Below, in pieces: positions 22,087 to 52,711 of a DNA stretch of 64,000 nt. The notes under the pieces are model-generated. The model did no database searches and had not been told where the DNA came from. It worked only from the letters and a program-made list of their open reading frames with translations. The DNA is from Aurantiochytrium sp. KH105 (Eukaryota > Sar > Bigyra > Thraustochytrida > Thraustochytriidae), in assembly GCA_003116975.1 (NCBI GenBank), contig BGKB01000108.1:170666-234665 (forward strand), read 5' to 3'. Every line of letters begins with the position of its first letter. The stretch's first letter is position 1. The translations under genes and the position numbers were made by a program.

Positions 22087-23694
22087 ATGAGCGTCGTCTT
22101 CGATGAGTTCGGGCGACCGTTTATCGTGATGCGCGAGCAGGAGCAGCGCCAGCGTCTCAAGGGCCTCGATGCCCAAAAGGCCAACATCCTGGCGGCGCGG
22201 ACCGTGGCGGGTCTGCTGCGGTCCTCGCTTGGCCCCAAGGGCATGGACAAAATGATGGTCTCCCCCGACGGCGATGTGACCATCACCAACGATGGCGCAA
22301 CCATCCTCAACAAAATGGAGGTCGAGCACCAGGTCGCCCGTCTCATGGTAGAGCTCTCGCAGTCCCAGGACAACGAGATTGGCGACGGCACCACGGGCGT
22401 CGTCGTTCTGGCCGGCGCGCTCCTCGAGCAGGCCAACAGACTCCTCGACGAGGGCATCCACGCCGTCCGCATCTGCGAGGGCTTCGAGAAGGCCTGCGAG
22501 GTGGCCGTGGCACAGCTCGAAAAGATTAGCGACACGGTCGAATTCTCCAAGGACAACATCGAACCTCTCATCCGCACCGCCTCCACCACTCTCAGCTCCA
22601 AGATCGTCCACCGCTACAAGGCCAAGATGGCCAAGATTGCCGTCGACGCTGTTCTCTCGGTTGCCGACCTTGACCGCAAGGACGTCAACTTTGATCTTAT
22701 CAAGATGGAAGGCAAGGTTGGAGGCACTTTGGAAGACACCGAGCTCGTCAACGGCGTCATCCTCGACAAGGATTGGGCCCACCCTCAGATGCCCAAGGAG
22801 GTCAACGACGCCAAGATCCTCCTCCTCACTTGCCCCTTTGAGGCCCCCAAGCCCAAGACCAAGCACAAGCTCGATATCAAGTCTGCCGACGCCTACCGCG
22901 CTCTCTACGAGCAGGAACAAAAGTACTACAGAGACATGGTCAAGATGTGCAAGGACTCGGGTGCCAATACCGTCTTTTGCCAGTGGGGTATGGAGGACGA
23001 TAGTCTTGGTGTCCTTGTCCAGGAGAAGCTGCCCGCTGTGCGCTGGGTCGGCGGTGTCGAGGTCGAGCTTCTCGCCATGGCAACCGGCGCGCGTATTGTG
23101 CCCCGCTTCGAGGAGATTACCCCGGAGAAGCTCGGTCGCGCGGGCAAGGTGCGCGAGGTTCAGTTTGGTACCACAAAGGAGCGCATGATGTACATCGAGG
23201 ACTGCCAGAACGCAAAGACCGTCACCGTTTTTGTGCGTGGCGGCAACAAGATGGTCGTCGACGAGGGCAAGCGCTCTCTCCATGATGCCATGTGCGTCAC
23301 TCGCAACCTTATCAAGGACAACCGCATCGTCTATGGTGGTGGTTCCGCCGAAGTCGCGTGCTCTCTTGCCATTTCTGACTATGCCAACACCATTACTGGC
23401 ATCGAGCAGTACGCTATCCGCGCCTTTGCTGACGCTCTCGACGATGTGCCCATGGCGCTCGCCGAGAACTCGGGTCTCCCGCCCATCACCATGCTGTCCA
23501 ATATCAAGGCGCGCCAGGTCGCGGAGGAGAACCCCTTTATCGGTATTGACGCCATGGGCAACCAGGAGGCCAACATGAAGAGCGCGCTCGTCTTCGAGAC
23601 CCTCGCCGGAAAGATCTCCCAGATCCAGATGGCCAATCAGCTCGCCAAGCTTATTCTCCGTGTCGATGACGTCTTGGCCAGCGCCGGTCAGTAA
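22087..23694 (+). CDS. CCT5: T-complex protein 1 subunit epsilon (CCT5), cytosolic chaperonin
   Basis: 535 codons, the expected length for a CCT subunit. The protein is one of eight subunits of the TRiC/CCT ring that folds actin, tubulin and other proteins with ATP. Visible landmarks: [20 protein letters not shown] (TCP-1 signature 1) near residues 39-58, [20 protein letters not shown] (signature 2), and the ATP-site block [20 protein letters not shown] (signature 3) near residues 97-116. Near the end is the CCT-typical [17 protein letters not shown] with the apical-to-equatorial return. The N-terminal [14 protein letters not shown] and the later [13 protein letters not shown] fit epsilon rather than other subunits. 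Codon use is strongly GC3, as expected for a highly expressed gene. The start follows a GGAGGAAA leader. Confidence 0.97.
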
Positions 23695-24396
23695 TTCTAA
23701 GCGTATCGTATACCTATACCCCGCACGAATGTGTTCTTTCTTTCTCTCTTTCCTTCTACCTTTCTTTCTTTTTGGCTTGCCGCAATTTCTTGTAGCAATG
23801 AGGGCGTCTCCTTTCTTCCTTGGTTCGTGTCCTCGTAACCCCGGAAGCTTGCACTTGCAAACCTCTTGACGAGGAAGGTACTTATCGTTCCGTTCTTCGC
23901 GGGCTGCAATACCGCTGCCGCCGTCATGCAGTTGTTATTTACTGTTATTCCATCAAAACGTGCTTGCACTGATGGCTGGCTGGTCACGCGTGACCGACAA
24001 AGGATGCCTTCGTGGACACCTTAAATTTTGAAGTACGTATACCAATCCTTCGCAAACACCTCACCCCCTTTTGCCCTCGCGCCGGCGGCGCGACGGTGCG
24101 CCAGGCCAGATCGAAAGGGGAAAGGGACAACCAGCTGCTCCTATCTCTCCCTTCCCTTTCTAGCGTGCGTTCTTGCGACACGCCGCGCGTATGCGCCCAC
24201 ACGGAGTTCGCCAAGCCCGCCTCGCAGCACCAGGAGCCCAGCTCTCCGCTCTCATCGATCTTTTCTCTCCCCTCGCCTTTTTCTTCGTTCTCGTCCCTTC
24301 ACGCCACAGCCGCTACCTCGCTTCGCTTCTTCGATTCGTTTCGCTTGCCCTCGCCCGCCCGCCCTCGCGCCCTCGCGCGCTCTCCTCGCCGCCGTC
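23695..24396. other. Intergenic region between CCT5 and the Roco gene
   Basis: 702 bases between two plus-strand genes. It contains a CTTTC-rich pyrimidine tract at 23726-23770. The frame of the next gene is open upstream to a TTG at 24028, but that part is Pro/Arg/Ser rich and looks like leader sequence. No other gene recognised. Confidence 0.5.
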
Positions 24397-27300
24397 ATGG
24401 GCCGCATCCTGGGCACCGTGGACTGCGTCGCGCAGTCCGCCGACCTTGTGCTGGCGGCCACAAGCGGCGACGGCTACTTGCGCGTGTGGAGCAAGGAGGA
24501 AGGCGCCCTCGTCTTGGAGATGAAGACGCCCAACAACATGCCGGCCAATACAGTGGCCGTGCAGGACAATCTGGCCGCCGTGGGGACTCTCGCAGGCGGC
24601 CTGTTTCTCATTGACCTGGGCACCTCCTCCGTCCTGCACGCCCTGGTGGGCCACACCGACCATGTCAACAGCGTCATCCTCGACGGCAACCAGATCATCT
24701 CCGGATCCGAGGACCAGACTATTCGTGTTTGGGACAGAATCAGCGGCCGAGAGATCTTGACGATCGACGCTCAGGTGGAAGTCAAGGCCCTTGCCGCCCA
24801 CAAGAAATTGCTCGTGGTTGCGTCGCAGGACAACATCGTGCGCGTCTTCGACCGGGCCACCCGTCACCGACGACCACGCCGCGTCCTCAGGCAGGCGACA
24901 GGCAAGGTCACAGCGGTCGCGATTGACGCGCAGCGTATGGCGAGCGGGTCGTACGACAGAAAGGTGAGGGTCTACGCCGTGCCCTCCTTCAGGCTCGTCC
25001 GCGTGCTCAAAGCGGACGGCATTGTGACCTGTGTCGCGCTCGAGGGAGACCGCATCGTGAGCGCGTCGTTTCCCACGATCACAGTCTGGGATGCGCGCAA
25101 CGGAGACACGCTGCACGTCCTGCAAGGACACTCGAGCATTGTATGGACGGTCTCTCTTTTGGGCCCGGACGTCGTGAGCGGATCTGGGAACTCCGCTGGA
25201 TCTGCTGACATCAGCGTGCGTGTCTGGGATGCGGAGACGGGCGCCTTGACGCGCGTGCTAAACGGCACGGAGGCCGTGCGGCCCATCGAGGAAGTGCTCG
25301 GCGCCGCGACGGGAGCCGCGGCTTCTGCGGCGGCGGAGAAGGTGCTCAAGGCGGCGCTGGCGAACGGAGACCCCGCAGAACTGGGCCGCTGCAAGCTCAT
25401 GATAGTCGGCCAGTGCGCCGCCGGCAAGACGTCCACCGTGCGCTCGCTGCTGGGCATGGCGCCCGTTGAAGAACACATCTCGACGGTGGGCGTCGAGCTC
25501 AAGCGTACCGATGCAGAGTCGTGGGAAGAGATCAAGGACCTTGACAGCGGATTTGAACGCCAGGTGTATCGCGTGGCAGCGCTGCGCATGGCCGTGCAGG
25601 AGCAAGCTGCGAGCAAAACACCGCAATCCACTCCCATGCGTATTTGCCGCAAGGCATCGAATCTCGTCTTTGGACGCCGACGTTCCTCTGCCGCGCGGCC
25701 TTTCGTTGCAGAGGTGCAGGTGGAGCTGGTGCCTGAGGCCGAGGTGGCGCAGCGGTTCGAATATGCGGAGATCGAGGATATGGCCGGCAAGACGCAGTCG
25801 GACCAGAAGATCTACTTTACAATCTGGGACTTTGCGGGCCAGGACGTCTTTTACGCGCTGCACCACATTTTCCTCACGCGCGAGGGCGGCGTCTTCATGG
25901 TCGTCTTCGACATGCAAGAACTTCTTAGCAAGCAAGAGCGAGCCGTGGAGTACCTTTCCTTTTGGCTCAACTCGGTCAAGCTACGTGCGCCAACTGCACC
26001 CATTATTCTGGTGGGCACGCACTATGACGAGGCGTCCGTTGACCTCAACGAGGTGGAGGAGATACTCATCGGACAACTGTCTGTTGACGAAAACGAAAAC
26101 ATCGTTCCAAACTCGAGAGCAAGCCTGAATTTCTTTCCTATCGACAACATGAGCTCTGAGCCAGATCGTGCCTCAGAATTGCGCGTTGCGGTCGAAGCAA
26201 GCGCTTCGTCGCTCGAGTCCGGCTCGCGAAAGATCTCCCTGCGGTGGCTCAAGGTGTTGGACGACCTGCTAATGCTCGACTGCGACCATGTGCCTTTCAA
26301 GGCAGCGCAAGAACTCGCAACCAAGTATCACGTCGGTGAACAGACCGATGAGCTCTTAAGCTTCTTCCATGAACTCGGCATGCTCGTCCATCTCCGCGCA
26401 ACAGATGTCTTGTATGACAATGTCGTCCTGAATCCGCAGTGGCTCCTGAACAAACTTTCGCGCGTGATTGCGGACGACATCCATGTCGACCAGATACGGT
26501 ACGACCATGAACTTCAAAACGCTGGTCTAGAAAAAGACTTTGAGTGGCTGCGCAAATGCGGTATCGCCACGCTCAGTCTGCTGAGGTTTCTATGGAATGA
26601 TGAAGAAGTCGACTTCCTCGTGGACTTCATGCGCGGCGCCATGCTACTGTCAGATTGGGCGTTTCCGGAAGAGAGCCTCACATCGGGCCGCCAAAGCGAA
26701 CCGCTCTATTTGGTGAGTAGTTTACTCAAAGATTCAACAAGCGCTGAGCTTGACGCAGAGATTGCTGATATGGACATCGGTTTGACATGCGTTTTGGACT
26801 TTTCCAAATTCTTTCTCCCGGATGGCGTCTTTGCGCGCCTGCTCTCACTTTGCGTTCAGTACAGTGGAAATTTTGGGGCCATTTCGCGCGCCCCTCAGCT
26901 CGCGGGAAACCAGGCGATCGTTCACTTTAATTTTTCTGATTTTGCGCTCAAGCAGACCAAAAATAAGATCTGGATTCGTATCGAGCGGAAATCCAGAAAG
27001 CCCGCGAGCACGCTTAAGACACTGGTGGGCATGTTCCGAGGCGCACGGAACGCGATCTTTCGTGATTTGCCTTGGGAGCTTCTTCTTCAGTCACCTAAGG
27101 ACGCGTCTGCATTGTGTGCGTACGATGAGGTGGCTCGGGCGCGTACATCCGGCGCAGATTCCGTCTTATCCACGAGCAAGAGAATTACAAGTGTAGCAGA
27201 CTTTGACCCTTTTTTCCACGACGGCTCGCTGGAAGAAGACGAAAAAGGCACCGAGACTGTTGAGCAGGCCACTGCAGCGGATTTTGATCCGTTCCGCCAA

Positions 27301-27885
27301 GATGACTCGCTGAAAGAAGACGAAACAGACACCGAGACTGTCGAGCAGGCAAGTGTAGCAGACTTTGACCCACATTTCCAAGATGGTTTGCTGCAAGAAG
27401 ACGAAAACGACACCGGTACTGTCGAGCAGGTTTCACTCCAGGTTTTGCCAGCGGGTCTCGAATATCATGTCTACTTGAGCCACCGACAGAGGAACGCCCG
27501 TGAAACATGCAATCTCATTGCAGATAAACTCGAAAGTCGAGGGCTTAAGGTCTGGTATGATCGAGAAAGTAGAGGCGACCTAGCAAAGGAAGTCATGCGT
27601 CGCGGCATTCGCGCGTCAAAGTGTTACCTTCTTTTTCTCTCCAAGTCCGTATTCATGGGCGCGGTGCTCATGGAGCTCGAGATAGCGCTGCAGGAAAAAA
27701 AGCCTGTTTTGCTTGTGCACGAGAACGATCCAGATCGAGCTGGCTTCGTCACCTTTACAAGTTACATTGAGTCGGCACCGAAGGATGCCAAGCATCTCTT
27801 ACGCGAGTCGGAGTCCATACCTTTCCAGCGTCGTCTGACGGAACACTTTTACGAACAGCTCATTGCACGAATTAACGCCAGCTAA
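24397..27885 (+). CDS. WD40 - Roc - COR - TIR protein (Roco-family GTPase with C-terminal TIR domain)
   Basis: 1162 codons from ATG 24397. Residues ~1-300 hold about seven WD40-type blades, for example GHTDHVNSVILDGNQIISGS followed by EDQTIRVWD. A Roc GTPase follows: P-loop GQCAAGKT at 338-345, WDFAGQ (switch II) at 477-482, and GTHYD, a variant of the base-contacting NKxD, at 540-544. A COR-like region runs to about 920, with VVLNPQWLLNKLSRVI as a clear COR block. Three 27-residue acidic repeats occupy 933-1013. Residues ~1022-1162 form a TIR domain: YHVYLSHRQRN, RGLKVWYDRES, YLLFLSKSVF and LMELEIALQEKKPV. Glu1093 sits where NAD-cleaving TIRs keep their catalytic Glu, but the Trp usually four residues before it is Ala. 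Roco proteins are intracellular GTP-regulated switches; the receptor-like reading is inference. No introns are needed. Confidence 0.88.
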   Translation: MGRILGTVDCVAQSADLVLAATSGDGYLRVWSKEEGALVLEMKTPNNMPANTVAVQDNLAAVGTLAGGLFLIDLGTSSVLHALVGHTDHVNSVILDGNQIISGSEDQTIRVWDRISGREILTIDAQVEVKALAAHKKLLVVASQDNIVRVFDRATRHRRPRRVLRQATGKVTAVAIDAQRMASGSYDRKVRVYAVPSFRLVRVLKADGIVTCVALEGDRIVSASFPTITVWDARNGDTLHVLQGHSSIVWTVSLLGPDVVSGSGNSAGSADISVRVWDAETGALTRVLNGTEAVRPIEEVLGAATGAAASAAAEKVLKAALANGDPAELGRCKLMIVGQCAAGKTSTVRSLLGMAPVEEHISTVGVELKRTDAESWEEIKDLDSGFERQVYRVAALRMAVQEQAASKTPQSTPMRICRKASNLVFGRRRSSAARPFVAEVQVELVPEAEVAQRFEYAEIEDMAGKTQSDQKIYFTIWDFAGQDVFYALHHIFLTREGGVFMVVFDMQELLSKQERAVEYLSFWLNSVKLRAPTAPIILVGTHYDEASVDLNEVEEILIGQLSVDENENIVPNSRASLNFFPIDNMSSEPDRASELRVAVEASASSLESGSRKISLRWLKVLDDLLMLDCDHVPFKAAQELATKYHVGEQTDELLSFFHELGMLVHLRATDVLYDNVVLNPQWLLNKLSRVIADDIHVDQIRYDHELQNAGLEKDFEWLRKCGIATLSLLRFLWNDEEVDFLVDFMRGAMLLSDWAFPEESLTSGRQSEPLYLVSSLLKDSTSAELDAEIADMDIGLTCVLDFSKFFLPDGVFARLLSLCVQYSGNFGAISRAPQLAGNQAIVHFNFSDFALKQTKNKIWIRIERKSRKPASTLKTLVGMFRGARNAIFRDLPWELLLQSPKDASALCAYDEVARARTSGADSVLSTSKRITSVADFDPFFHDGSLEEDEKGTETVEQATAADFDPFRQDDSLKEDETDTETVEQASVADFDPHFQDGLLQEDENDTGTVEQVSLQVLPAGLEYHVYLSHRQRNARETCNLIADKLESRGLKVWYDRESRGDLAKEVMRRGIRASKCYLLFLSKSVFMGAVLMELEIALQEKKPVLLVHENDPDRAGFVTFTSYIESAPKDAKHLLRESESIPFQRRLTEHFYEQLIARINAS
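27193..27435 (+). repeat. Three in-frame 81-base repeats inside the Roco-TIR gene
   Basis: Three consecutive 27-codon units beginning [VA]ADFDP and ending ETVEQ[AV][TS] (third unit GTVEQ), at 27193-27273, 27274-27354 and 27355-27435. They link the COR and TIR regions and are rich in Asp/Glu. Confidence 0.9.
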
Positions 27886-28323
27886 ATCAGATTATCGTTT
27901 GTAATCTCTGGAAACTCATCGTTTGTAATCTCTGTTTCAAGTATGAGCAACTATTTGGGTAGGCTACGCAAGAACTTGAGCAGGCTAACAAGCAAGCACT
28001 TGCGCAAGCTAAAATGTCGTCAGCGCGGAAGCGGAAGTTGGTTGTCTGTACCTGTGAGGCGCCGGAGCAGATGATTGTTTGCTTGTCTTAGATTTTGCGT
28101 ACGTGCGTAAGTGCGTGTGCAAGTGCACAAGTGCAAGCATGGAAAGCATGCATGAGTGCGATCGAGCCTAGATGCATTTGTCCTTGCGTGTGGCATTTTA
28201 GTATTTATCGCGCGAGCCAGAAACATGTTGATATCAAGGTTAGTCATTGTCAAAGTCGATGGTCATCAACTGTCTTGTCTGATTAGGTTCTAAAAGAGGG
28301 AGAGAAAAGGAAAACAGATGTTT
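27886..28323. other. Convergent 3' region with clustered CAAGT/ACTTG elements
   Basis: 438 bases between the Roco-TIR and epimerase genes. ATCGTTTGTAATCTCTG occurs twice in a row at about 27894-27935. A palindromic ACTTGCGCAAG lies at 27998-28008 and an AAGTGC cluster at 28109-28136 (TAAGTGC, CAAGTGC, CAAGTGC). No gene recognised. Confidence 0.5.
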
Positions 28324-29226
28324 TCACATCTTTGAGAAGGTGACACGTTGCGTGAGCACCCAGGTAGCGTTTGGCTCACAGGTCTCGTAGCGCGAGACAC
28401 AGCCGGGCTCGAGGCACATCATGGTATGAAACTCCTCGTCGCCGAAGTCGCCCATTCCCTTGGACTTTTCCGTCCAAGGGTTCCAAAGGACTGCATCGCA
28501 AGGCTTAATGTCCGTACCGTCCTCACCAGTACTGAGGCTCAGTTCGATACTGATTTTCTTGGATTTTCCGTCAAGAATTTCGATTGGGCCCTTGGCATCA
28601 GTATAGATGCGATCGGTTTCCGCCTCGAAAGTGATCGGATCGTTTTCCTCCGTGAACGTGTTGCTCTCACGGAGCTGATCCACGTACGAGAGACCCTTCA
28701 GCCCCACCACTTGGACCTGCGAGATGTCCTCGATCAGGTAGTACGTGTGCAAGAGAGCTTGGAACTTGAAGGCCTCCTCGCCCACGTTCACGACGTGCAT
28801 GCTCGTCTGCAGCTTGGAGGCGCCAAAGACAATGTTGTGCACAAGCTTGAATTTGAAGGGCCAAATTTTCAGCGTCTCCTCATTGCTCTCCAGCACGAAA
28901 GCGACCGTGACGATGCCGTCCTGTTCCGTGGGCGTGTCTTCAAGAAGCCACTCGGACGTGCGCGCAAAGCCGTGCTTGGGCAGCTCGCCGCCGCCAAACT
29001 GGGGAAACACCAGCGGCACGCCGCCTCGCACAGGCTTGCTGCGATCGGTGTGTCCCTCTTCTGACGCAAAGAGCTTCTCCTCGCCGTCTGCGTCCTTGTA
29101 GGAGTACAGCGTGCCACCAAACTTGGTGACGCGAATGGACGCGCCGCATTCGTCGCTCGTTACCTCGAGCGCCTCCAGCGAGCCGCCGTGCTTGCCCTCC
29201 AGCAGCACGTCCTTTTGCGTGACCAT
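28324..29226 (-). CDS. Glucose-6-phosphate 1-epimerase-like (D-hexose-6-phosphate mutarotase)
   Basis: 300 codons from ATG 29226. The fold is aldose 1-epimerase: early GASIRVTKFGGTLYSYKD, RGGVPLVFPQFGGGELPKHG with FAR, FQALLHTYYLIEDISQVQV (the conserved second His in LHTYY), VLWNPWTEKSKGM and CLEPGCVSRYE with the conserved Glu acting as general base. RGGxPxVFPQFG and LHTYxxxxDI are characteristic of the yeast YMR099C-type hexose-6-phosphate mutarotases rather than galactose mutarotases. The expected reaction is interconversion of the alpha and beta anomers of glucose 6-phosphate in the cytosol. The family's usual length is about 290-310, so the gene is complete. Upstream open frame (to 29271) adds 15 residues of no clear value. 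It is head to head with the PP2C-CCCH gene. Confidence 0.9.
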   Translation of the reverse strand: MVTQKDVLLEGKHGGSLEALEVTSDECGASIRVTKFGGTLYSYKDADGEEKLFASEEGHTDRSKPVRGGVPLVFPQFGGGELPKHGFARTSEWLLEDTPTEQDGIVTVAFVLESNEETLKIWPFKFKLVHNIVFGASKLQTSMHVVNVGEEAFKFQALLHTYYLIEDISQVQVVGLKGLSYVDQLRESNTFTEENDPITFEAETDRIYTDAKGPIEILDGKSKKISIELSLSTGEDGTDIKPCDAVLWNPWTEKSKGMGDFGDEEFHTMMCLEPGCVSRYETCEPNATWVLTQRVTFSKM

Positions 29227-46125: not shown

Positions 46126-48933
46126 TTACAACGCATCGTTAACGGAAGTGGTAATCTTGGACTCCAAGGCCGTCACCTTGGGCGGAGGCTGCGGCCCAAA
46201 CTTCATGAGAAGCGCAGGGAGCACCGTGTTGCTTGCGACGAGGGAAAAGATGATCACCTGAAGAAGAAACTTGCCAAAAAGTCCCAGATACTGGATCTCG
46301 CACAGAGTCAAGGCAATTGCCGCCGTCGTGGAGGAAATTGCGCCGAATAAAACGCTCACACTAATGCGCGTGAACGCAACACGCGTCCTCAACAGGCTCG
46401 TTGCCACCATGTCTCCGTCTGCCGCCTTGTAAAAGTCTCCAATCATGCAATTCTCGGGCGTCACCTCTGCGATGAGCCAGGCGTGCTCGGGTTCGTATTC
46501 AACATAAGCAATGGCAAAATGCAAAGTAAAGTCGAACGAGAGACCGACGAGCGCGGTGATGCTAATGGCCTCCATGAAGCCAATCTCGCCCAGCGTAAGC
46601 TGCATGACACCGAGCACTAACGCGGTGATCACTACAATGTTGAGCGTTGCAAGAACGCTGACGCGGAGATTTCGTGTCATGGCGAGAAGACAAACAAAGC
46701 CAAAGCCGACGCCTGCACAAAGGCCAATTATCGCTGTTTGAACAAGCACCTCTTGCATAGCAAAAATAGTGAAATAGTCCGACACGAGCAAAGCAGTCCC
46801 CACCGAATCAGGTCCGTCCTTGAAACGTTCCGTCAATCCGTTCGCCAGAGCCTCGAACCCGTTCATCTTATCGCCCAGTGAAGCGCTCTGCGGGACGGCA
46901 AGCACGGTCGTCATTGTCATAAACTTGACCGGATCAGGCACCACAGTGCCATCGGTAGGTGTGAGACCAATCAGCACACTCGCAAAGTCTTCCGCGCTTT
47001 CATCGCCGCTTGCGAACCATTGCTCGAGCAAATTGCGCGCATCCGTTTCCGTCGCGACGGGAAAAGTTTCGTTCTGCGCTTCAAGCCAGTCGCTCCAGTC
47101 CAGAACCCAGCACGACACGCTCGGCTCGCCCGCTGTAGGAGTGCGCACATAGCTCGGGCGATTCGTGCTATTTTCGTCGCCGTAGTCGGTGCAGAGGTCG
47201 TAGAGGGCTTGTTGTGCATCGGGCTGAAGAGGCGCGAAGCCGTCGCTGTATGAAAGGGCGCCCACATCGAGTGGGTCGAAAGGCGAAGTCCCAGAGCGAT
47301 CAATCAATTCAAGGCCAAAGGACACAACAACTGTAAAGAAGGCGCCCGCTGAAAAGACAAACTCTTCGATCTTCAAACCATTGACGATGGTAAGAGGATG
47401 GTCCTCATCAAAGATGTCCTCAATGCGCTTCGTCCCGGGCTCGAAACGAGTCGCAAAAGACCCAAAGGTGACGGTGAGGGCAAGGCCAACAATGAGAATT
47501 GGCCAGCGCGCGCGCCAAATGAAGGGAATCCAACGATCACGAAAGAAAAGTTCCACAAGCCCCAGCACAGGATCCTCGTCACTCTCGTCGGAAGTTGACG
47601 AAGAGTCCTGCGTGCGTCGCAGACATTGAGTTGGCTTGCACGACTTGACGTGACGATAGTGCACGACCACGAGGCATGGGAAGATGGTGATCACCATGAC
47701 AAAGTTGACGACAATGAGCAGACCGGCAAACATGCCAAAGTCTTTAATGTTCGGGATCGAGCTCAGTGCCGTCACTGCAAAGGCCACGAATGTCGTGAGA
47801 CTTGTCACCAGCATAGCCCCGGCTGCTTTGCGGAACGCCCAATCCATCCGATCAATCAAAACATCTGGATTGTCGGATTTGACAGCAAATACAACGGCGC
47901 TCTGGCGAAATGCGTCCCAAAAGATGAAAATATCGTCGGTACCAATACCAAGGACGAGAAATATTGCCAGCGTCTGGAGCGTGCCAAAGTGCTCAATGCC
48001 AAAGACGAAGCGGTAGATAAAGTACGTCGTGGGAAATGAAAGAATAATCTGAAGAAGAGACAAAGATCCCAAAAAGAGCGACCTCGTGTGGAAGCAAAGC
48101 ATGAGGAAGACGATTGCAATAGCAAGGCCAGCATAGGCGGCGTCCCGTACGATCGTGTCGAATGCGTAAAAGTTCGTAATGTCCTGAAAGTCAAAATAAA
48201 AGACCATTGCCTCGTTCTGCTCTCGCAGGGGATCAAGATAGTTGATTGAGACATCCTCCACCGTTTCCTGAATGATTGCCGCCTGCTCGCTCGCACGGTC
48301 TTGCGTCCCGTTGTATCCTTCCAACGGAAGCCCAAAGCGGATGCGAGAGCGCATCATGGGCATCACCACCGTCGACGGATCCTCGGCTTCGATATCAAAG
48401 CCTGAGCTCACAAAAAAGCTCGTGGACTCAATATCGTCCAGCAGAGCGGTCGCAAAGGCAACGCGGTCGTAGTCGGACTGGTTCTCAGGGAGGTAAGATG
48501 TTGCGGAATACGGCTCGAGACATTCACCCGTTGCATTGGACAAGAGGCAGATCTGTTGAATTGCCTCATGAGCGAGGACTTCCTCTTGCAAATCGCGAAT
48601 GTAGTATAGGTCATCTGGATTTGCGAGGAAGTCCGCGGTCGAGCGCCTTGAAACCCAGTAGAGATCGAGATAGTTCTCGGATACTTCGGTCCGCGTGGGT
48701 GCGTTGGCGGCGGCAGAGTTTGCTGCAGTGATCTCAGACAAGGCGGTCGAATACGCATCATAGGCGCGCGAGGAGTAGCTCGACTTGACAGACCAGCCAG
48801 CTGTGTCGTTGAGCTCCAAAAAGTTCACCGCGACGGCCGTGAAGATCACGGGCAAAAGCGAGGCGAAAAGGAGCAGTACACGAGGGTACCGGACCACGAC
48901 GGTCATGGCGCCTTTCGTTGTTGGCCACCGCAT
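46126..48933 (-). CDS. RND/Dispatched-Patched-like transporter, paralogue 1
   Basis: 935 codons from ATG 48933. The layout is the RND 12-helix plan: TM1 (about residues 17-36), a large luminal loop, and a sterol-sensing-domain-like block of five helices (about 265-430). A second large loop and the last six helices follow (about 735-920). TM4 carries FLVLGIGTDDIFIFWDAFRQ, where the GxGTDD acidic pair corresponds to the proton- or sodium-relay Asp residues of Dispatched and Patched. TM10 carries ITALVGLSFDFTLHFAIAYV, the matching GLSxD motif. Both acidic motifs are intact, so ion-driven transport is plausible. Substrates of this family are sterols or lipids in known members; no Hedgehog-like ligand is implied here. 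The neighbour at 49934 is a close tandem paralogue. Confidence 0.9.
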   Translation of the reverse strand: MRWPTTKGAMTVVVRYPRVLLLFASLLPVIFTAVAVNFLELNDTAGWSVKSSYSSRAYDAYSTALSEITAANSAAANAPTRTEVSENYLDLYWVSRRSTADFLANPDDLYYIRDLQEEVLAHEAIQQICLLSNATGECLEPYSATSYLPENQSDYDRVAFATALLDDIESTSFFVSSGFDIEAEDPSTVVMPMMRSRIRFGLPLEGYNGTQDRASEQAAIIQETVEDVSINYLDPLREQNEAMVFYFDFQDITNFYAFDTIVRDAAYAGLAIAIVFLMLCFHTRSLFLGSLSLLQIILSFPTTYFIYRFVFGIEHFGTLQTLAIFLVLGIGTDDIFIFWDAFRQSAVVFAVKSDNPDVLIDRMDWAFRKAAGAMLVTSLTTFVAFAVTALSSIPNIKDFGMFAGLLIVVNFVMVITIFPCLVVVHYRHVKSCKPTQCLRRTQDSSSTSDESDEDPVLGLVELFFRDRWIPFIWRARWPILIVGLALTVTFGSFATRFEPGTKRIEDIFDEDHPLTIVNGLKIEEFVFSAGAFFTVVVSFGLELIDRSGTSPFDPLDVGALSYSDGFAPLQPDAQQALYDLCTDYGDENSTNRPSYVRTPTAGEPSVSCWVLDWSDWLEAQNETFPVATETDARNLLEQWFASGDESAEDFASVLIGLTPTDGTVVPDPVKFMTMTTVLAVPQSASLGDKMNGFEALANGLTERFKDGPDSVGTALLVSDYFTIFAMQEVLVQTAIIGLCAGVGFGFVCLLAMTRNLRVSVLATLNIVVITALVLGVMQLTLGEIGFMEAISITALVGLSFDFTLHFAIAYVEYEPEHAWLIAEVTPENCMIGDFYKAADGDMVATSLLRTRVAFTRISVSVLFGAISSTTAAIALTLCEIQYLGLFGKFLLQVIIFSLVASNTVLPALLMKFGPQPPPKVTALESKITTSVNDAL

Positions 48934-49933: not shown

Positions 49934-52711
49934 TCACGGTTCCTGCAATGCGACAACCTCTGTCGCCTTAGGTGGAGCTTGAGGCCCAAACTTCATGAGC
50001 AGCGCAGGAAGCACTGTGTTACTTGCAACGAGCGAGAATATGATCACCTGGAGAAGAAAGTTGCCAAAAAGCCCCAAGTACTGAATCTCGCACAGCGTCA
50101 ACGCGATGGCCGCCGTCGTGGACGAAATCGCCCCAAATAAGACGCTCACGCTGATTCGCGTGAAGGCAACGCGCGTCCGCAAAAGACTCGTGGCCACCAT
50201 TGTGCCGTCATCTGCCTCGTAAAAGTCACCTGGCAGGCAATCTTCGGGGGTCACGCCGGCAATAAGCAAGGCATGCTCGGGCTCGTACTCAACGTAAGCA
50301 ATGGCAAAGTGCAAGGTAAAGTCAAACGAAAGTCCAACGAGCGCGGTGATGCTGATGGCCTCCATGAAGCCAATTTCGCCAAGCGTGAGCTGCATGACAC
50401 CGAGCACCAATGCGGTGACGACCAGAATGTTCAAGGCAGCCAACACGCTCACGCGAAGGTTTCGAGTCATGACGAGAAGACATAGAAATCCAAATCCAAT
50501 ACCTGCGCAAAGACCAATGATGGCCGTTCGCACGAGGACTTCTTGCATGGCAAAGACAACGAAATAGTCGGAAACAACGAGCCCTGTGCCAATCGACGCA
50601 GGGCCGTCTCGAAAGCGATCGGTGAGCCCACTCGCTAGGGACTCAAACCCATTCATCTTCTCGCCCAGTGAAGCGCTCTGCGGCACGGCGAGTACAACCG
50701 TCATGGTCATGAACTCGACTGGATTTGGCACCACGTTGTCGCCGCCTGGCGCCAAACCGACGAGCACGTTCGAAAACTCCTCGGCATTTTCGTCGTCGCT
50801 GTCAAACCATTGCTCGAGTAGATTGCGCGCATCCTCCTCTGTGGGCACGGGGAAGGTCTGGTTTTGCGATTCGAGCCAATTTCTCCAGGCCAAAATCCAA
50901 CACGTGACGCTCGGCTCCCCCACCGTTGGGGTGCGCACGTAGTCCGGGCGATTCGTGCTATTTTCGTCACCATAATCGCTGCAGAGGTCGAACAAGGCCT
51001 GCTGCGCGTCGGTTTGAAAGGGTGCAAAACCCTCACTGTACGAAAGCGTGCCGTAGTCGCTGGGGTCAAAGGGTGAGGTCCCCGCGCGATCAATCAGTTC
51101 AAGGCCCAGAGTTACCGTGGCTGTGAAGAATGCGTTCGAGGAAAAGACAAACTCCTCGATTTTCAGTGCATTGACAATAGTGAGCGGATGATCCGCATCA
51201 AAGATGTCCTCAATGCGTTTCGTTCCGGTCGTAAACCTTGAAGCGAGCGAGCCAAACGACACCGTGAGGGCCAGACCGACAAACAAAATGGGCCAGCGCG
51301 CGCGCCAGACAAGTGGGATCCAACGATCGCGGAAGAAGGTTTCCACCAGTCCCAGTCTCGCTTGTTCACCTTTTGCTTCGGAAGCAGATGCTCCTCTCGA
51401 TCTGCACAGGCAACGAATTGGCTTGATGTAGCGCATGTGAATGATCACGAGGCAAGGGAATATGGTGATGACCATGAAAAAATTGAGCACAATGAGCAGT
51501 GCCGCAAACATGCCAAAGTCCTTGATGTTCGGAATCGGGCTTAGCGCAGTAACAAAGAATGCCACAAAGGTGGTCAGACTCGTCACAAGCATCGCTCCGG
51601 CCGCCTTGCGAAAAGCCCAGTCGAGACGATCGACCAAAACGTCCGGGCTATCAGCCTTGGCCGCAAATACGACGGCGCTCTGTCGAAAGGCGTCCCAAAA
51701 GATGAAGATGTCGTCGGTGCCGATGCCCAAGACGAGAAAGATCGCCAGAGACTGAAGCGTACCAAAATGCTCGATGCCAACGATGAAGCGATATGCAAAG
51801 TACGCCGTAGGGAACGAGAGTAAAATCTGCAAGAGAGACGTGAAGCCGAGAAAAACCGACCTCGTGTGGAAGCACAACATGGTAAACACAAAGGCTCCGG
51901 CAGCGCCAGCATACACAGCATCGCTCACGATGGTTGTGTCGACATAGTAGTTGGTGATGTCGGAAAAGTCAAAGTACAGAATGAGCGCATCGTTTTGCGT
52001 GCGCAGAGGGTTCAAATAGTCGATTGCAACATTCTGAATTGCCTCCTGAATAATGTCAGACTGCTCGCTGGCGCGGTCCTGCGCGCTGTCATAACCCTCC
52101 AGAGGAAGTCCGAACTGCAGACGCGAGCGTAGCATAGGCATCACCACTAAAGAAGGGTCCGTGGCGGTAATGTCGAAGGCAGAGCTTACAAAGAAACTGG
52201 TGTCGTCAATGTCGCTTAGCAAATCACTTGCAAAAGTATTACGGTCGTAGTCTGCTTGGAGCTCTGGCAGAAAGGAAGTAGCCGAGTACGCTCCGACACA
52301 TTGGCCAGTGGAATTGGACAAGAGGCAGACTCGCTGAATGGCATCTTGCGCGATGACCTCTTCTTCGAATGCACGAATGTAGTAGAGATCCTCCGGGTGG
52401 TTGAGAAAATCCGCGGGGCTGCGACTCGACACCCAATAGAGATCTAGATAGTTGCTCGAGGCCTCTGTGCGCGTCGGGGCCATGGCTGCCTCGGAATTGG
52501 CTGCTTCAATCTCTGCGTTGGCTACGATGTAGGCATCGTACGCGCGTGATGAGTAGCTCGACTTGACCGACCATCCCTGCTGGTCATTGAGCTCAAGTTG
52601 CGTGACGCCAATGGCCGAGAAGACTAGCGGGAGTACAAGCGCAGCAAGGAAGACAAGACAAGGCCGCTGGACCACGACACTCATGGCGCCTCGGCTCGTT
52701 GGCTTCCACAT
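49934..52711 (-). CDS. RND/Dispatched-Patched-like transporter, paralogue 2
   Basis: 925 codons from ATG 52711, which matches the start of paralogue 1 (MWKPTSRGAMSVVV against MRWPTTKGAMTVVV). The frame is open to 52861, but the extra Leu run is a translated CAG repeat opening on TTG. Topology and motifs are the same as in paralogue 1: GIGTDDIFIFWDAFRQS and GLSFDFTLHFAIAYVEY are identical. The two proteins are colinear throughout, and the ends differ most. They probably arose by tandem duplication followed by divergence. A TATA-like TATAAA on the minus strand at 53070-53065 is about 355 bases upstream of the ATG and could belong to this gene. Function as for paralogue 1. Confidence 0.9.
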   Translation of the reverse strand: MWKPTSRGAMSVVVQRPCLVFLAALVLPLVFSAIGVTQLELNDQQGWSVKSSYSSRAYDAYIVANAEIEAANSEAAMAPTRTEASSNYLDLYWVSSRSPADFLNHPEDLYYIRAFEEEVIAQDAIQRVCLLSNSTGQCVGAYSATSFLPELQADYDRNTFASDLLSDIDDTSFFVSSAFDITATDPSLVVMPMLRSRLQFGLPLEGYDSAQDRASEQSDIIQEAIQNVAIDYLNPLRTQNDALILYFDFSDITNYYVDTTIVSDAVYAGAAGAFVFTMLCFHTRSVFLGFTSLLQILLSFPTAYFAYRFIVGIEHFGTLQSLAIFLVLGIGTDDIFIFWDAFRQSAVVFAAKADSPDVLVDRLDWAFRKAAGAMLVTSLTTFVAFFVTALSPIPNIKDFGMFAALLIVLNFFMVITIFPCLVIIHMRYIKPIRCLCRSRGASASEAKGEQARLGLVETFFRDRWIPLVWRARWPILFVGLALTVSFGSLASRFTTGTKRIEDIFDADHPLTIVNALKIEEFVFSSNAFFTATVTLGLELIDRAGTSPFDPSDYGTLSYSEGFAPFQTDAQQALFDLCSDYGDENSTNRPDYVRTPTVGEPSVTCWILAWRNWLESQNQTFPVPTEEDARNLLEQWFDSDDENAEEFSNVLVGLAPGGDNVVPNPVEFMTMTVVLAVPQSASLGEKMNGFESLASGLTDRFRDGPASIGTGLVVSDYFVVFAMQEVLVRTAIIGLCAGIGFGFLCLLVMTRNLRVSVLAALNILVVTALVLGVMQLTLGEIGFMEAISITALVGLSFDFTLHFAIAYVEYEPEHALLIAGVTPEDCLPGDFYEADDGTMVATSLLRTRVAFTRISVSVLFGAISSTTAAIALTLCEIQYLGLFGNFLLQVIIFSLVASNTVLPALLMKFGPQAPPKATEVVALQEP

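Follow-up and report, generated by a model that had tools for sequence, protein, structure and literature searches.

In Podospora anserina, the HET-NACHT-WD40 (HNWD) genes HET-D, HET-E and HET-R carry WD40 codons reported to be under diversifying selection (PMC12222747, PMC4986451). Among brown algae, the leucine-rich repeat (LRR)-ROCO proteins are candidate immune receptors with positively selected sites on the concave ligand face, for which reshuffling has been proposed (PMC11378527). The same source gives 9-47 LRR-ROCO genes per brown-algal species, and for other SAR species, Schizochytrium aggregatum among them, it counts at most four ROCO copies; it also mentions N-terminal WD40 repeats on ROCO proteins and a TPR-ROCO-TIR protein in the red alga Chondrus crispus. 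ROCO+TIR proteins are reported from the mollusc Aplysia (PMC9334734), TIR-[NB-ARC]-WD40 proteins from amphioxus (PMC2575513), and AP-GTPase/COR proteins with rapidly evolving LRRs from prokaryotic conflict systems (PMC8195603). Here we describe a gene of the thraustochytrid Aurantiochytrium sp. KH105, located in a 64,000-nucleotide stretch of contig BGKB01000108.1 (the window), which joins a WD40 propeller, a Roc GTPase, a COR region and a TIR domain.

Comparison with its relatives in the same genome indicates that this gene belongs, quite probably, to a large and rapidly diversifying family of intracellular receptors for recognition. The best reading, drawn by analogy with fungal HET-D/E and the brown-algal LRR-ROCO proteins, is an NLR-like recognition repertoire built on a Roco switch; the family would work like NLRs, and is not one of them. 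A broader proposal, which we favour a little less firmly, is an immune or allorecognition repertoire of this NLR-like kind in a unicellular organism: dozens of Roco-switch receptors, near-randomised at 21 contacts, almost wholly different between haplotypes and with reshuffled modules, which may form a new receptor class with the propeller as its diversified binding scaffold.

One open frame and its relatives

The frame (24397..27885, + strand) is open for 1162 codons; it starts at the first in-frame ATG past an upstream stop, ends at a stop codon and requires no intron. In a Pfam profile scan of the entire 1162-residue protein, with curated cut-offs per family, matches were obtained to WD40 (PF00400; 1.1e-19, 70.4 bits against a cut-off of 27), Roc (PF08477; 9.8e-20, 71.4 bits against 27, best stretch residues 453-544), COR-A (PF16095; 4.9e-11, 43.1 bits against 35.3, residues 616-703) and TIR_2 (PF13676; 5e-12, 46.8 bits against 28, residues 1025-1110). 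The initial annotation, made from the letters alone, had described one uninterrupted frame joining WD40, Roc, a COR-like region and TIR, and the profiles bear this out, COR being represented by COR-A only. No kinase family is among the Pfam families listed for the whole protein (the best 25 of 39) or for its domain pieces; NACHT and NB-ARC are absent from the same lists and from those of 12 scanned members. A plain Roco kinase was rejected on the first of these results, and membership of the NLR/STAND class on the second, the switch being a Roc domain.

A search of the 76.03-Mb assembly (367 contigs) with the window protein gave 531 candidates, 40 of which were scored, so the copy number is a lower bound. 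At least 40 near-full-length copies, including that of the window, share the WD40-Roc-COR-TIR order. The 39 other scored places match most of the window protein at 67-76% identity, and in every one the TIR match lies in the same open frame as the N-terminal part, so that two independent genes, or a frame joined by chance, are very unlikely. This alternative was rejected because of the repeated order and because the ratio of nonsynonymous to synonymous divergence (dN/dS) of the Roc, COR and TIR codons is 0.19-0.30. For alignment, 37 copies (L009-L045) were fetched and 36 used; L024, which has an in-frame TAG, was left out throughout. L031, whose first 75 residues are missing, is included in the 36-row entropies and stands outside the 595 all-pairs comparisons and the distance correlations. 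Median pairwise identity among 35 of the aligned copies is 75.0% (65.2-98.0).

Profile matches across the genome extend beyond these copies. COR-A has 124 matches, 116 of them over the cut-off, and all 150 TIR_2 matches scored from 258 candidates are over theirs. A TIR lies downstream of 91 of the 124 COR-A matches, on the same strand and within 2.2 kb; in 86 cases it shares the open frame, and 47 of these frames are at least 1130 residues long, the size of the WD40-Roc-COR-TIR family. No such partner was found for 33 COR-A matches or for 59 of the 150 scored TIR matches, the latter pointing to a large and varied TIR set in the genome.

Hypervariable contact positions of the propeller

The proposed sensor is a seven-bladed WD40 propeller formed by residues 1-292 (24397..25272, +), recognized by Pfam and by AlphaFold2. 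The model has 28 strands over residues 7-288, four in each of seven blades, with blocks of predicted local distance difference test (pLDDT) scores mostly of 80-96. Three positions per blade, termed R1-2, R1 and D-1, are reported to be the top-face contact hot spots of WD40 proteins (PMC3419727). In the window protein they correspond to 21 codons (24415..25206, +), with R1-2 at residues 7, 49, 89, 128, 170, 209 and 248, R1 at residues 9, 51, 91, 130, 172, 211 and 250, and D-1 at residues 24, 65, 105, 144, 186, 225 and 270. All 21 are among the 28 most variable of the 292 WD40 columns by entropy across 36 copies, and average 2.86 bits against 0.46 in the remaining WD40 columns; when the register is slid by 1-12 residues, entropy is at most 1.52 bits. 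A check at fixed offsets from the blade anchor in consensus blades gave 3.02, 2.67, 2.35, 2.07 and 2.00 bits at -7, -23, -21, -24 and -5, and at most 1.06 bits at the other offsets from -35 to +6.

Selection at these codons was assessed by Nei-Gojobori (NG86) counting over 11 pairs of copies with common flanks, nine of which match on both flanks and two (L010/L012 and L019/L027) only upstream. The dN/dS of the hot codons is 2.20 (bootstrap 1.64-3.08), compared to 0.69 (0.54-0.83) for the rest of the propeller, 0.30 for Roc and 0.19 for both COR and TIR. Over all 595 pairs, the hot-codon value is 2.87. Amino-acid change is thus concentrated on the contact positions of the propeller, with dN/dS above 1. 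Residue composition at the hot sites is shifted towards Tyr (10.7 v 0.8%), Trp (9.2 v 1.6%) and Asn (9.9 v 2.5%), and these sites are also rich in Arg. In 548 of the 595 pairs, none of the seven hot triplets is held in common. Within the window protein the seven blades are dissimilar, and each is nearly constant between copies. As in the HNWD proteins, therefore, a few codons per repeat appear to be diversifying on the interaction face.

Targeted hypermutation, similar to that of diversity-generating retroelements (DGRs), could in principle make such variable codons, as the framework is near-constant and variation sits at particular codons; putative sensors of bacteria are reported to be diversified by DGRs (PMC10907252). 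However, the third positions of hot codons keep the base preference of the framework (C+G 0.83 v 0.89), and changes are seen at every codon position instead of at a single base. On the third-position result, a weak test, DGR-like mutagenesis was rejected as the main source of variation, and we consider this origin highly improbable. An assembly or annotation artefact, with collapsed or chimeric copies or a chance fusion of frames, is less credible still. Repeated genes can misassemble, and the assembly appears to hold two haplotypes, but at least 40 copies of the same order lie on many contigs, with open frames and purifying selection outside the hot codons, and errors would not cluster at 21 structurally defined codons.

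The surroundings of the window gene show how strongly counterparts can differ. Contig C44 carries the same neighbours, with L034 as the receptor between them. Coding DNA of the window and C44 is 97-100% identical per 100 bp upstream (22897-23696) and 94-100% identical downstream (28297-28896), and the window protein is 70-71% identical to L034; the two contigs hence carry plainly different receptors at the same locus. Among the aligned copies, L011 (75.3%) and not L034 is closest to the window protein. In seven of the nine pairs that match on both flanks, 23-33 nonsynonymous changes fall within the 21 hot codons. Genes resembling polyunsaturated fatty acid (PUFA) synthases occur in near-identical pairs on C72/C155, C290/C61 and C27/C56 (PfaA model, below its cut-off), which would fit a labyrinthulomycete genome. 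Because these genes and the neighbours of the window gene are paired on different contigs, the assembly may hold two haplotypes, and copy numbers per haplotype may be about half of those given.

Two other functions have to be considered in light of these pairs. In a housekeeping adaptor family, with substrate recognition of the FBXW7 type, the copies would serve different cellular partners and reflect subfunctionalisation instead of conflict. FBXW7 is indeed among the closest solved chains to the propeller, and its top face is reported to read phosphopeptides (PMC3419727). Yet one fixed partner per locus would not give same-locus counterparts that differ at nearly all contact codons, as in those seven pairs, and a TIR effector is unusual in such adaptors; we regard this explanation as unlikely. 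Wholesale differences between counterparts on homologous contigs would instead suit allorecognition in place of pathogen defence, in which self proteins are compared between individuals or cells and mismatched partners are killed or blocked, as by HET-D/E in Podospora. Allorecognition has the closest precedent, since HNWD proteins combine a TIR-related HET effector, a NACHT switch and diversifying WD40 codons in the account of PMC12222747. Nevertheless, a polymorphic partner gene is not known, the present data hold no sign of cell fusion in this organism, and the three HNWD genes named there make a much smaller set than the present family. A purely allorecognition role is thus a possibility to be held tentatively, behind the more general recognition repertoire.

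Exchange of modules between copies is a further source of differences. Pairwise distances correlate at 0.34-0.74 between blades; between blades and the second half of Roc or COR the correlation is 0.01-0.13, and between blades and TIR 0.01-0.29. Roc2 and CORa distances correlate at 0.93 and those of the two TIR halves at 0.91. For instance, L025 and L041 have six of seven hot triplets in common and nearly the same TIR, with COR differing by 0.31, and L010 and L013 reach about 90% identity in WD40 and Roc-COR but 68% in TIR. The three modules, WD40, Roc-COR and TIR, do not share one history. Over all pairs, synonymous divergence is 0.12 in the WD40 framework, 0.55 in COR and 0.61 in TIR, and the low framework value would fit homogenisation by exchange. 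L010, L011, L012 and L013, on four contigs, have upstream flanks in common that are 89-94% identical, which indicates that some loci were duplicated as segments. The NLR-like character put forward in the initial annotation gains indirect support from this large family, with its variation focused on the ligand-binding face of the propeller and its exchange of modules; it does not extend to NLR membership, given that NACHT and NB-ARC are not listed.

Switch, effector and proposed mechanism

The Roc GTPase region covers residues 325-600 (25369..26196, +) and is matched by PF08477 and by LRRK2 Roc in the PDB (1.2e-14). Its P-loop GQCAAGKT (residues 338-345; 25408..25431, +) and switch II WDFAGQ (residues 477-482; 25825..25842, +) are intact, as first annotated. 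Lys344 and Thr345 of the P-loop and the Asp and Gln of the switch are kept in all 36 aligned copies; at switch II, 28 rows were compared (subsequent alignments had 36), and all 27 copies other than that of the window read WDYAGQ. Between switch I and switch II lies a family-specific insertion of roughly 90-100 residues (approximately residues 370-465; 25504..25791, +), which is found in the aligned copies too and which PF08477 and LRRK2 Roc flank, aligning just to either side. COR-A follows Roc directly at residues 616-703 (26242..26505, +), and the remaining COR extends to about residue 900 (27096). The Roc profile was matched in 12 of 12 members scanned, as was COR-A at an E value of 0.01. 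With a Roc domain followed by COR, the window protein is classed as a Roco protein on profile evidence.

An acidic linker with 2.5 copies of an 81-bp tandem repeat (27225..27430, +), found only in the window copy, precedes the C-terminal domain and lengthens the window protein by about 60 residues relative to most copies. No tandem repeat of WD40 size was found within the window gene. The TIR domain itself comprises residues 1022-1162 (27460..27882, +) and is supported by PF13676, AlphaFold2 and Foldseek. Scanned alone, the TIR piece is also over the PF01582 cut-off (22.8 bits against 21.3), and falls below it (19.6 bits) inside an 838-residue Roc-COR-TIR piece. An AlphaFold2 model from an alignment of 32 own-genome rows has a pLDDT of 88.0 and a predicted template modelling score (pTM) of 0.85. 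SARM1 is its first Foldseek match (E 2.0e-6; 6o0u, template modelling scores 0.69/0.75) and AbTir its third, with 14-20% identity in these structural matches. A profile of the same 32 rows matches AbTIR (6.1e-12), Roq1 (4e-10) and SARM1 (1e-8). PADLOC returned three weak matches, two of them (PDC-S66 and ThsB) within residues 1002-1086 around the start of the TIR.

Glu1093 (27673..27675, +), which had been placed at the position used by NADase TIRs, aligns in the profile alignment with the Glu of AbTir that we take to be the catalytic residue. It is invariant across the 36 aligned copies and across the 32 rows of the TIR alignment, which include eight other TIR proteins of the genome. AbTir and PdTIR have a Trp four residues before this Glu; the window protein has Ala1089 (27661-27663, +), the substitution pointed out at the outset. 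Across the family, 28 of 36 copies have Ala at this position; the others have Glu, Lys, Asn or Thr, and none has Trp. The invariant Glu argues for an enzymatic TIR, and the missing Trp leaves NADase activity uncertain. Loss of the Trp would agree with a TIR that acts as a scaffold, signalling by TIR-TIR contact or recruiting another effector, and Foldseek also matches the fold to the TIRs of TLR1, TLR2 and MyD88. Against this stand the invariant Glu and the NADase TIRs that lead both the structural and the profile matches, so a scaffold role is conceivable but the weaker option compared to an enzyme.

In the mechanism that we propose, the propeller would act as sensor and bind a ligand with its top face. 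This ligand could be made by a parasite or a virus, or it could be a protein of the cell itself that is altered or varies between individuals. Binding would be passed on to the Roc-COR GTPase switch, which would normally keep the protein off, and switching would assemble or free the C-terminal TIR. The TIR would then cleave NAD+ or produce a nucleotide signal, leading to cell defence or death; GTP control of the switch, the TIR activity and an immune or cell-death role are all predicted here. The mechanism makes two predictions, that the 21 named residues set ligand specificity and that Glu1093 sets the output.

Several observations weigh against this reading. The 21 positions were assigned by a published rule, but after the entropy list had been seen, and dN/dS was obtained with a counting method. 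The proportion of synonymous differences is raised at the hot codons (0.27 vs 0.09), which is partly expected where whole codons are replaced. Two of the pairs matching on both flanks, L014/L016 and L036/L038, have only 0 and 4 nonsynonymous hot-codon changes. COR-B was matched by Pfam in none of the 12 members scanned, and Roc-COR is poorly modelled in the full-length AlphaFold2 prediction, largely with pLDDT below 50; that model is good for the propeller and moderate for the TIR (overall pLDDT 55.2, pTM 0.37). The frequent Ala near the catalytic Glu belongs here as well. Finally, the window copy may be partly degenerate, as it and L034 are the most aberrant members, having 29 and 25 changes of their own at columns that do not vary otherwise, compared to 0-8 in the others.

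Related proteins and described systems

Other combinations of the same domains occur in this genome. Two Roc-COR-TIR proteins (L047 and L048) have no WD40 listed by Pfam in the fetched frames, and two others (L005 and L052) are ankyrin-TIR proteins. L051, on contig C26, is an LRR-Roc-COR protein of at least 1910 residues, closer to the common Roco layout. L046 and L054 on contig C51, and L050 and L055 on contig C32, have an N-terminal TIR, an NPHP3_N/NACHT-type NTPase and many WD40 repeats, an NLR-like build. In 15 pattern-fitting repeats of these proteins (11 from L054 and four from L055) variability is highest at offsets -23, -7, -24 and -21, on the face that also carries the propeller hot sites. 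Elsewhere in the window, two similar frames of 935 and 925 residues lie in tandem on the - strand (46126-48933 and 49934-52711) and by eye resemble membrane proteins of the Patched/RND type.

Scans with the Roc-COR-TIR alignment, which reach close relatives only, gave little outside this genome. In prokaryotes, 62 pattern matches included one weak relative, a stretch of a Helarchaeota metagenome-assembled genome with 28% identity over 78 residues; viral contigs gave 66 pattern matches and no relatives, and plasmids one weak GTPase match, in Spirosoma. A WD40-Roc-COR-TIR family is not named in the open PMC literature searched, which does not prove its absence elsewhere, and no relevant open PMC paper was found on TIR, ROCO or NLR proteins of thraustochytrids or labyrinthulomycetes. 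As far as these searches reach, the WD40-Roc-COR-TIR order, its expansion in a unicellular organism and hypervariability of a propeller face on a Roco switch are apparently new. The pairing of TIR with a Roco switch, which the initial annotation had singled out, is itself already published (PMC11378527, PMC9334734).

The closest domain combinations each share part of this design. The Chondrus TPR-ROCO-TIR and Aplysia ROCO+TIR proteins likewise have TIR and Roc-COR on one protein, and the published descriptions available mention neither a WD40 sensor nor a diversified family. The TIR-NACHT-WD40 proteins of the same genome and the amphioxus TIR-[NB-ARC]-WD40 proteins, as reported, resemble the window family in TIR effector and WD40 sensor, but differ in their STAND ATPase switch and N-terminal TIR. 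The NADase TIRs of SARM1 and AbTir (PDB 6o0u, 7uxu and others) share the fold and the conserved Glu, with the AbTir Trp replaced by Ala. LRRK2 and other Roco kinases, as outlined in PMC6337361, have the Roc-COR core and intact GTP-binding motifs in common with the window protein, which in contrast has no kinase or LRR, an N-terminal WD40 and a Roc insertion of about 90-100 residues. If the proposed reading is correct, Roco proteins, the LRRK2 family, would be placed in an immune setting in which switch and effector share one polypeptide.

In function, two described systems come nearest. The brown-algal LRR-ROCO proteins are, like the window family, a stramenopile ROCO family with a repeat sensor, selected sites on the ligand face and proposed reshuffling; they differ in having LRR in place of WD40 and no TIR, LRR-ROC-COR being given as their sole arrangement, and in encoding each LRR in its own exon, whereas the window gene is one frame (PMC11378527). 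The family suggests that large and rapidly changing sets of receptors, usually associated with plants, animals and fungi, can be maintained by single-celled eukaryotes, and that a Roco GTPase can replace a STAND ATPase as receptor switch. HNWD proteins, according to the published accounts available, share the WD40 sensor, the few diversifying interaction-face codons in a near-constant framework, a nucleotide-binding switch, a TIR-related effector and exchange among members. Their order is an N-terminal HET effector, a NACHT switch and C-terminal WD40, compared to WD40-Roc-COR-TIR with a Roco GTPase, and their repeats within one gene are nearly identical, at over 80% identity, in contrast to the blades of the window protein. 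The window family would thereby join two separate lines, that of the brown-algal LRR-ROCO candidates and that of fungal HET-D/E.

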